From assembly GCA_017554235.1 (NCBI GenBank), contig JAFZIV010000005.1, positions 1 to 46,074 on the forward strand: DNA of 46,074 bases, given 5' to 3'. Shown here piece by piece: positions 26,288-46,074 of the stretch. A program made the translations under genes and the position numbers. Positions within the stretch are counted from its first letter, which is position 1. Each line of letters begins with the position of its first letter. Under the pieces are notes generated by a model, which did no database searches, had not been told where the DNA came from, and saw nothing but the letters and a program-made list of their open reading frames with translations. Origin of the DNA: Selenomonadaceae bacterium (GTDB lineage Bacteria; Bacillota; Negativicutes; Selenomonadales; Selenomonadaceae).

Positions 26288-26316
26288 TTGACATATCTTT
26301 CGACAATCTATAAAAT
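26288..26316 (+). promoter_or_regulatory. Promoter upstream of the HEARO-like RNA and rny
   Basis: A perfect TTGACA (26288-26293) and TAAAAT (26311-26316) are 17 bp apart. The next plus-strand features are the structured RNA at 26435-26729 and rny at 26819, either of which it may drive. The rest of 26177-26434 shows only A/T-rich sequence and a CCGATCGG palindrome near 26380. Confidence 0.5.
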
Positions 26317-26434
26317 ATTATGGAATTTGAATTTCGTGACTTATATAAATTAAAAAACCGAGACGGGCATAAATTAACCGATCGGTATAAATTTTGTTGA
26401 CTTATTCGATTAATCATAAAGTGAAATAGATTGT

Positions 26435-26729
26435 GTCAATAACCCGACGCCTGTAGAGGCGGGAGCTTTTTCGGCTCTTATTGACTAGCCTTAGTCGAAA
26501 GACTACGTTGTTTATGTTATCACACCTATGGACGATGCTCTAATCTGTAGCTCTGTGCAGGCTCTGTAAAAGTTCTGACGGGTAGGAACGGTCAACCTGA
26601 TGTGTTCGTTTACGACAAGCATTTACAACATTGGCGAAGGGCAACTAACTCCTTAGGGAGGGACAGGACTTGTGAGTACCTGTCAACGGCGATTCATCCC
26701 CCACTTGCAGAAGTGGGGGAATTCTCGCC
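26435..26729 (+). ncRNA. HEARO-like structured RNA (IscB omega-RNA type), no adjacent nuclease gene
   Basis: A ~295-nt non-coding segment with many nested pairings. GTCAATAA (26435-26442) pairs with TTATTGAC (26478-26485), enclosing CGCCT/AGGCG and GAGC/GCTC as a three-way junction. Next are TAGTC-GAAA-GACTA (26492-26505), GTTC/GAAC (26572-26589), a core word ACATTGGCGAAGG, CTCC/GGAG, GACAGG/CCTGTC (26662-26684) and a terminal hairpin GGCGA...CCCCCACTT/AAGTGGGGG...TCGCC (26688-26729). The same skeleton recurs at 45759-46074 with different stem sequences. The layout and core words fit my memory of the HEARO motif, the guide RNA of IscB elements; no covariance search was possible. No IscB gene is adjacent: rny begins 90 bp on. 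Confidence 0.6.
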
Positions 26730-26818
26730 AATTAAGGTTAAAGTTGACAAAATGCCCTCTCAAGGATTTTTTAGCGTAATGGCGCAATGAGTCAGATTAA
26801 TTCTAAAAATTTCAGGGG

Positions 26819-28363
26819 GTGTGGATCATTGCTATTACAATCGCGGCTGCCATTGTTGCAATAATTTTAGGCGCAATAGGAGGATATGCCGCAAGAAAAC
26901 GTACTGCGGAGGCGCAAATTGGTTCCGCTGAAGAAGAAGCACGAAGAATTTTAGCTGAAGCTCAAGAAAAAAGTAATGCTGAAAAAAAAGAAGCAGTTTT
27001 GGAGGCTAAAGAAGAGATTCACAGAATGCGACAGGAATTGGACAAAGATACTAAGGAACGCCGCAATGAATTGGCGCGTCAAGAAAAGCGCGTTGTTCAA
27101 AAGGAAGAGAATCTCGATAAAAAAATGGATTCTCTTGAAAAAAAAGAAATTCTTCTAAGCAAAAAAGAGGCTCGTCTTAACGAATCGCAGGCAAAACTTG
27201 ACGCCATGCAGGAAAAGGAAGATGCCGAAATGGAACGTATTGCGGCACTTTCACGCGACGAGGCTCGTACCATTATAATGACGGAAGTCGAGGAAGGCTT
27301 AAAGCATGATAAGGCTATCCGTATTAAAGAATATGCCGCGCAGGTTAAAGAGGAAGCCGACAAGAAAGCGCGAGACATTTTAAGCATTGCAATTCAACGT
27401 TCCGCCGCAGATCACGTTGCCGAAACTACTGTATCAGTTGTAGAGTTACCCAGCGACGATATGAAAGGCAGAATAATCGGTCGTGAAGGGCGCAACATTC
27501 GGACGCTTGAAACTTTGACGGGAGTCGACTTGATTATTGATGACACGCCGGAAGCGGTTATACTTTCAGGATTTGACCCCGTAAGGCGCGAAGTTGCCCG
27601 CGTTGCTCTGGAAAAATTAATTTCCGACGGAAGAATACATCCTGCGCGAATTGAAGAAATGGTTGATAAAGCCCAGCGTGAAGTTGAATCGCGTATGAAG
27701 GAGACGGGCGAACAAGCAACTTTCCAAGTTGGTGTACACGGCATTCATCCCGAACTTGTAAAACTTTTAGGAAGGTTGAAATACCGCACAAGTTACGGGC
27801 AAAATGTTTTAAATCACTCAATCGAAGTTGCTAAACTTGCAGGAATTATGGCTAGTGAATTGGGCGTCGACGTTAATTTGGCGAAACGTGCAGGTTTGCT
27901 CCACGATATTGGCAAGGCTGTTGACCATGAAGTTGAAGGACCGCACGTCACGATTGGCGCAGATTTAGCTAAACGTTATCGCGAAAATAAAGTTGTCGTC
28001 AATGCGATTGCGTCACATCATGGAGACGTTGAGGCTACAAGCGTTGAGGCGGTATTGGTTGCCGCCGCTGATGCTGTATCTGCCGCAAGACCGGGCGCAC
28101 GTCGTGAAAGCCTTGAAATGTATCTTAAGCGTCTGAAAATGCTTGAAGAAATTGCAGAATCTTTTGAAGGTGTCGAAAGATGTTTTGCAATACAGGCGGG
28201 ACGTGAAGTCAGAATTATGGTTAAGCCCGACAAAATCGATGATCTTGAAGCGGTAACTTTGGCACATGATATTGTTAAACGAATTGAAAAGGAGCTTGAT
28301 TATCCCGGACAGATTAAAGCAACTTTGATTCGTGAAACGCGCGTTGTCGATTATGCTAAATAA
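26819..28363 (+). CDS. rny: Ribonuclease Y
   Basis: 514 residues starting at GTG 26819 behind CAGGGGG. Domain order matches RNase Y: an N-terminal membrane anchor ([20 protein letters not shown]), a long Lys/Glu-rich coiled coil (to ~200), a KH domain ([20 protein letters not shown]) and an HD metal-dependent phosphohydrolase domain ([25 protein letters not shown]). RNase Y starts mRNA decay at the membrane in Firmicutes. In many of these genomes it lies beside ymdB and spoVS; here those are 4.6 kb downstream. Confidence 0.97.
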
Positions 28364-45576: not shown

Positions 45577-45668
45577 AAAAAATTTTCTCCTTAAGTTAAA
45601 TTTTAAAATTTCGCATTGATATTTCTGCGCGGCTATGGTAAAATCCTTTTTTGTCAAACATTTAAGAT

Positions 45669-45744
45669 GTCAATAACTCACCGCCTATAGAGGCGGGAGC
45701 AGGGACAGGACTTGTGAGTACCTGTCGACGGCGATTCATCGCCG
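45669..45744 (+). mobile_element. Deletion remnant of a HEARO-like element (5' and 3' ends joined)
   Basis: GTCAATAAC and CCGCCTATAGAGGCGGGAGC match the 5' end of the RNA at 26435. They are joined directly to GGGACAGGACTTGTGAGTAC and CGACGGCGATTCATC, which match its 3' end (26661-26697). The ~200 bp in between are missing, so this looks like an internally deleted copy. Confidence 0.5.
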
Positions 45745-45758
45745 ATTATGGTTAAAAC

Positions 45759-46074
45759 ATCATAGCTAGCCAAACTAGGGTAAAACCAAAATTTGAAATC
45801 GTTGGTTTTCTATGATTAGCCTTTGTTTAGGGAAGAGGGAAAAGGGACGAGGGAAGATTTTTATTCCCTGTTCCCTAATCCCTATTCCCTCACACCTACG
45901 TTACTTGCGAATATATAGGTACCTACGGACGTTAATCCTAATCTGTAGCTCTACGGCTTATGGTTAAACAGTTCTGAGCTAGAGGAACGGTGCTGTAAGC
46001 ATACAAACCGCAAGATAACATTGGCGAAGGATTACTACCCTAGCGGGCGGGGGTCTTAAAGACATTTATGCCCG
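45759..46074 (+). ncRNA. Second HEARO-like structured RNA (truncated at the right edge)
   Basis: Same order of blocks as 26435-26729. ATCATAG (45759-45765) pairs with CTATGAT (45810-45816), enclosing CTAG/CTAG and AAAACCAA/TTGGTTTT as a three-way junction. TAGCC, a much enlarged hairpin (45829-45890), CACACCTA, CTAATCTGTAGCTCT, GTTC/GAAC and the core ACATTGGCGAAGG (46018-46030) follow, then CCC/GGG and GTC/GAC stems. An IscB-type gene would be expected just beyond the edge, but none is visible here. Confidence 0.55.
45829..45890 (+). repeat. Enlarged G-rich/C-rich hairpin inside the second HEARO-like RNA
   Basis: Four AGGGAA-like words (45829-45855) face four TTCCCT-like words (45864-45890), giving two 27-nt arms with few mismatches and an 8-nt loop. 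It replaces the short TAGTC-GAAA-GACTA hairpin of the first copy. Confidence 0.7.

Follow-up and report, generated by a model that had tools for sequence, protein, structure and literature searches.

The leader of the RNase Y gene (rny) in a rumen-type Selenomonadaceae bacterium carries a complete omegaRNA of the HEARO family with no iscB gene beside it. Together with its ends, it probably constitutes a non-autonomous mobile IscB (OMEGA) element, whose omegaRNA would be used in trans by an IscB encoded elsewhere in the genome, and which would be kept or recopied at its locus by this means. The stretch of DNA analysed here, referred to as the window, is 46,074 nucleotides long and corresponds to positions 1 to 46,074 of contig JAFZIV010000005.1. 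Its relevant features are the following.

26288 to 26316, + strand: rny promoter (TTGACA, 17 nt, TAAAAT), 11 of 12 positions, recurring in relatives without the element
26419 to 26434, + strand: putative guide of 16 nt, lying in host leader DNA immediately before the element and placed by its position relative to the HEARO 5' end
26435 to 26742, + strand: the non-autonomous type-B element in its entirety (about 308 nt); left end set by the HEARO start, right end by the shared GGTTAAA
26435 to 26649, + strand: omegaRNA (HEARO, RF02033, 103.5 bits), with compensatory changes
26655 to 26684, + strand: what is left of a type-B iscB start, with its ribosome-binding site and TTG start hairpin, from by-eye comparison with L188, L178, C13 and L174
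26687 to 26729, + strand: right-end hairpin, from the sequence; L174 and the C13 element are laid out alike
26819 to 28363, + strand: rny (RNase Y), the downstream gene (Pfam RNase_Y_N, KH, HD)
45669 to 45756, + strand: mini-element of 88 nt, left end fused to right end with the omegaRNA core deleted (matches 45668-45700 and 45701-45743)
45759 to 46074, + strand: second omegaRNA, of type A and truncated where the contig ends (HEARO match and sequence)

A covariance-model search with the Rfam HEARO family (RF02033) matched positions 26435 to 26649 (+) over the full length of the model (1 to 211 of 211), with 103.5 bits and an E value of 2.3e-20 against a gathering score of 83. A tRNA was the sole further Rfam match at gathering in the whole 46-kb window. 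This result confirms the original prediction, made from the sequence alone, that the region encodes a HEARO or omegaRNA-like RNA. The RNA had been drawn from 26435 to 26729; its start proved exact, but its end did not, as positions 26650 to 26729 are not omegaRNA but the iscB-start remnant and the right-end hairpin.

The Rfam structure was followed across the window copy and four other type-B omegaRNAs, one from contig C44 of the same genome, one from G012 and two from G041. In these five sequences, 83.7% of 295 pair cells were standard, compared with 28-44% when the pair partners were slid by one to three columns. Two-sided (compensatory) changes occurred in six pairs, a number reached by 12 of 500 shuffles, and the percentage paired was reached by 39 and the further pair types by 324 of 500. 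The long helix holds three of the six two-sided changes, all three in the window copy. Since only five sequences were aligned, the compensatory changes support, but do not prove, constraint on the structure of type-B omegaRNAs. In the window copy, 10 of the 59 pairs of the model are non-standard, and a terminator-like stem lies within the 5' part of the omegaRNA (26448-26461); both points weigh against the reading favoured here.

Beyond the omegaRNA, the TTG of the iscB-start remnant is directly followed by TGA, and the right-end hairpin lacks a T-run; the element is without a gene. The terminal GGTTAAA, which ends at 26742, is common to the IscB element of contig C13 in the same genome and to the mini-element, in unrelated flanks. 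The left end and the terminal CAATTAAGGTTAAA also match those of the C13 element, an iscB carrier. No match to RRXRR, the IscB N-terminal family, was found on the whole contig of the rny element, in line with the absence of an adjacent iscB gene noted at the outset; an autonomous element was therefore not found at this place. Judged by its sequence, the rny element is a nuclease-less derivative, with both ends as in a full IscB element and the gene missing.

The copy at 45759, with which the rny element had been said to share its core, matched the HEARO model below gathering (45759-46038, 74.9 bits; 45798-46038, 67.9 bits). It is a real HEARO RNA, as predicted, but a weaker one and of another subtype (A). 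The mini-element adjoins it. Long hairpin inserts of two kinds were also seen in one loop region of the omegaRNA (L010, L016, L019, L021, L022, L023, L024 and C13). The insert of C13 stands in place of the core, and the pattern looks as if small repeats nest there.

The genome (2.27 Mb in 65 contigs, 94% complete) contains 24 HEARO copies of at least 66 bits, 19 of them above the cut-off; three weak matches (L025-L027, 21.7-23.4 bits) were left out. Three of the 24 copies have RRXRR directly after them (within 30 nt), two (C44 and C46) reach the end of their contig while still within a type-B iscB start, one (C10) precedes an internally deleted iscB, one is the copy at 45759 cut by the contig end, and 16, the rny element included, are without iscB. 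The remaining copy, on contig C65 (L024, about 16972 to the contig end), is directly followed by a frame that by eye resembles the start of TnpB rather than of IscB. A search for iscB elsewhere in the genome, proposed with the original prediction, returned five RRXRR matches, three in open frames (C47, 389 aa; C58, 432 aa; C13, 432 aa) and two in frames interrupted by TAG (C54) or TGA (C59). As the HNH domain is also present in C58, C13 and C47 (the last of these truncated by the end of its contig), these are IscB rather than IsrB. The presence of IscB genes elsewhere in the same genome lends plausibility to the suggested action in trans.

One of these loci is the C13 IscB element (L031, contig C13, about 78078-79597, 1520 nt). 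It encodes an IscB of 414 aa with a TTG start, of type B, the subtype of the rny element, and this protein aligns with IscB chains of known structure (best E 4.3e-29), the presumed catalytic residues of RuvC and HNH looking intact in the alignment. Upstream of the gene, the element keeps its left-end hairpin and the final portion of the omegaRNA, but an AT-rich hairpin stands in place of the core; no HEARO match was found there in a genome search at E up to 1. A guide-less nuclease and nuclease-less guides of the same subtype therefore coexist in one genome. The loss of the omegaRNA core by this IscB while guide-only elements of its subtype exist is the strongest argument for guides acting in trans, which they would do with IscB from elsewhere. 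Contig ends truncate another two type-B copies, and a complete type-B element may thus also exist.

The proposed history starts with an internal deletion that would have removed iscB and retained the complete omegaRNA and both ends. The omegaRNA would then be transcribed with the rny leader, downstream of the rny promoter, and processed, and the host bases directly 5' of the left end would act as its guide. An IscB from elsewhere in the genome would bind it in trans and, once loaded, would cut element-free copies of the locus, with the result that the element would be kept or recopied. In favour of this history speak the strong HEARO match, the compensatory changes of the window copy, the iscB-start remnant with the shared right end, the IscB genes elsewhere, the C13 IscB lacking its omegaRNA core, the many copies without iscB in this genome and the genus, and the clean insertion of the sister element L003 described below.

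Across the genus (66 genomes), 60 HEARO matches occur in 14 genomes, and 10 RRXRR matches, five above the cut-off, in six genomes. Seven HEARO matches lie 27-30 nt before RRXRR and an eighth at 570 nt, leaving 53 of the 60 without RRXRR within 30 nt. In nine of the 14 HEARO-bearing genomes no RRXRR match was found, a figure that incomplete drafts can inflate, and many copies may accordingly be idle, a further point against the favoured reading. A search confined to Y1 transposases gave no match in the 94% complete genome of the rny element, so that no enzyme for IS200/IS605 mobilisation was found there; this absence weighs against the favoured reading. Y1 transposases were found in seven of the 66 genomes, two of which (G010 and G035) are among the 14 with HEARO. 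In another genome, the frame of an IscB element (L196, G022:C47) is, by eye, open through the right end into a ruvA-like gene start.

The rny element could instead have arisen from an IscB element by deletion and, no longer in use or mobile, persist neutrally in the rny leader. Such a fossil would fit the single copy at the rny site, with no relative having the element there, the visible damage to several HEARO copies (the 45669-45756 mini-element, C10 and C13) and the persistence of HEARO in genomes without an RRXRR match. We consider it rather unlikely in view of the full-length model match, the three long-helix pairs of the window copy with compensatory changes on both sides, and the IscB genes of the same genome.

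The surroundings of the element bear on the non-autonomous mobile element reading and on a further alternative. The omegaRNA had been credited with a promoter of its own at 26288-26316. The site is real, but it is the rny promoter: the same promoter precedes rny with a leader of about 40 nt in the element-free L061, L063-L067, L071, L073, L146 and L148, and with a longer leader in the element-free L141-L143. The omegaRNA consequently sits in the rny leader, and the reading of 26288-26316 as its own promoter was rejected. Longer rny leaders of other sequence are found in L060, L062 and L068. Judging from the named relatives of its rny (the best 80 of 569), the host stands close to rumen Selenomonadaceae including Quinella. 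A comparison of the rny flanks by BLAST and by eye showed that, in the three closest relatives, about 115 nt of unrelated AT-rich DNA separate the two flanks before homology to the right one starts again near TTGACA; the insertion thus does not look clean, and involved either an accompanying deletion or DNA gained by the relatives. The non-clean empty site weighs against the favoured reading.

Among the 61 other genus genomes with an rny match, some on short contigs, none has HEARO on the rny contig; 12 have it on other contigs. An old domestication at rny was rejected on this count, and the idea of a domesticated element affecting rny does not hold in a conserved form, although the element may exert a recent, lineage-specific influence on rny expression. 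The alternative of a cis-acting structure, altering rny expression through leader folding, attenuation or processing and kept for that, could draw on the sense-strand position of the element between the rny promoter and the gene and on the terminator-like stem within it. It appears improbable, since none of the 61 other rny-bearing genomes has the element and the family precedes many unrelated genes.

For the non-autonomous element proposed here, the guide would correspond to positions 26419-26434, assuming the 16-nt length that we take from the IscB literature. The left flank of the element (own AAGTGAAATAGATTGT) has a homologue in L141-L143, with 3 to 5 mismatches of 16 by eye. As these relatives are element-free, the putative guide is host leader DNA, and its predicted position is upheld both by this homology and by the HEARO 5' end. 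No other site within one mismatch was found in the genome, and at two mismatches three genomic sites were counted against six for a reversed control; a guide aimed at another chromosomal place was rejected on these grounds. A 20-nt version searched exactly against a viral contig collection gave no match, which is weak evidence against a viral target. The right flanks of the type-B elements disagree, and no type-B target motif could be derived from them or from the empty site of the C13 element, whose neighbours by eye are presumably pncB and aroE; this too weighs against the favoured reading. It is hardly conceivable that a cutting-deficient relative uses the stand-alone guide as a regulator, like TnpB-derived repressors: several stand-alone guides and IscB genes do share one genome, but even with one mismatch allowed the guide finds no other place in the genome, its 20-nt version has no exact viral match, and the presumably catalytic residues look intact in the C13 IscB alignment.

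The type-A sister elements display another kind of placement. Of the 60 genus HEARO matches, 50 were fetched (all 24 from the same genome and 26 of 36 from relatives), and 28 type-A right ends were picked by eye. Not counted were seven copies with iscB (L005, L011, L019, L170, L177, L184 and L188), five of type B (L015, L016, L021, L174 and L178) and ten with a damaged, cut or unclear right end (L012, L014, L018, L020, L023, L024, L185, L187, L192 and L193). Type-A orphans measure 295-413 nt, with in addition a 190-nt remnant (L182), and their right ends are related, often CGCGCATATTTG. Directly after the right end stands ATGA in 27 of 28 cases and GTGA in one (L010); the junction was chosen partly by the ATGA that follows, which makes the 28/28 motif count circular and the open-frame count less so. 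A frame of at least 100 aa is opened at the junction in 22 of the 28, and the other six frames measure 2 to 43 aa. In this window only, the background amounts to 93 of 665 ATGA or GTGA sites, or 6 of 53 outside genes (11-14%), and the excess at type-A junctions has a binomial value below 1e-13, given the by-eye selection of the 28. At least three of the 22 frames (L004, L182 and L183) have a better start a few codons inside.

Examples of type-A elements abutting a gene-start ATGA are L001, L002, L003, L006, L008, L009 and L013 in the same genome and L173, L175, L180, L182, L186 and L195 in relatives. Seven of ten downstream proteins pass the curated NCBIfam cut-off (RelA/SpoT, RsmE family, 2-oxoacid:acceptor oxidoreductase alpha, MurG, NirJ1-type radical SAM, HslV and beta-Ala-His dipeptidase); one matched CCA-nucleotidyltransferase models below every cut-off, and those after L007 and L008 gave no NCBIfam match. 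With Pfam, five of seven downstream proteins were over the cut-off, namely Hfq (L018, which is outside the 28 counted right ends), FHA (L008), WbsX, trypsin/PDZ and a periplasmic binding protein, and no family was over the cut-off for the proteins after L007 and L017. One type-A omegaRNA (L014, contig C54) stands directly before two tRNA-Val genes and not at a protein start.

The empty site of L003 is exact. Four near relatives (L206-L209) read AAGGAGGAGAARAA directly followed by ATGAGC, and the genome of the rny element reads AAGGAGGAGAAAGA, the element and then ATGAGC, with no loss and no duplication; 18 of the 19 relatives printed align at this site, the exception being L219. Here the ribosome-binding site of the host falls within the guide, and the start codon is the motif. 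The terminal hairpin would place a purine-rich site 8-11 nt from the start in seven of the 22 cases (L003, L007, L010, L017, L172, L186 and L190), where a site was counted if it scored 5 or more of 8 and the hairpin left a bridged spacing within that range, in counts made without a shuffled control. L006 reaches these numbers with a site that is not purine-rich, and the other 14 of the 22 do not fit or are unclear. Before hfq (L018, contig C4), the leader AAAGGAGAAATTTTCAGAA occurs on both sides of the omegaRNA element, the right copy being one base longer, and its repetition would restore the ribosome-binding site of hfq.

A broader, tentative view, which we regard as possible, is that of a split RNA-guided system in rumen Selenomonadaceae, with few IscB proteins, at least one of them guide-less, and mobile stand-alone omegaRNAs mainly at gene starts. 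The type-A motif would be the start codon (ATGA or GTGA), the guide would be the displaced host ribosome-binding site, and the hairpin-bridged site of the element would replace it, such that murG or relA/spoT would tolerate the insertion, and reversion would expose the allele to cutting. The rny element would be a type-B offshoot of this system lodged in a leader.

The rny element resembles the HEARO RNA (RF02033), the omegaRNA of IscB, in its full-length model match and structure, and differs from HEARO RNAs with IscB in that only an iscB-start remnant, and no iscB gene, follows the omegaRNA. Stand-alone omegaRNAs were reportedly described with IscB in the 2021 work of Altae-Tran et al.; they are alike in having a guide RNA away from the nuclease gene with presumed action in trans, whereas the present genome has an IscB of the matching subtype that is itself intact but lacks the core of its omegaRNA. 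HEARO insertion before ATGA or GTGA is said to have been noted in the 2009 work of Weinberg et al. The sister type-A elements likewise end directly before these motifs, but in this genus the motif is mostly a gene start, often after a purine-rich stretch and the hairpin, and the rny element itself lies away from a gene start. With stand-alone omegaRNAs and insertion before ATGA or GTGA reportedly already described, the rny finding is a further case of a known kind. Elements of the IS200/IS605 type have non-autonomous MITE/PATE-like derivatives, with ends kept, the internal gene deleted and many copies. The elements described here share all three traits, but their cargo is a complete guide RNA and the genome has no Y1 transposase.

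In the part of the literature surveyed, only a small number of HEARO nucleases are accompanied by TnpA, and the HEARO RNA is matched in 65% of the 5' regions of these nucleases (PMC9755519), and HEARO RNAs of Limnospira were set aside along with intron remnants (PMC8400943). The surveyed portions, including those of PMC9755519, PMC13180657 and PMC8400943 and leaving the founding papers outside their scope, hold no mention of the start-codon placement of HEARO elements, which is no claim of its absence in print. What could be new is the separation of guide from nuclease, together with the preference for start codons.

Guide sharing can be tested concretely in this genome, which holds both an intact IscB whose omegaRNA is deleted and elements of its subtype that carry only a guide. 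Should the guides act in trans, a single nuclease would maintain many gene-less elements. Finally, the sister elements where housekeeping genes start would illustrate a way for a transposon to insert into such genes and leave them active.
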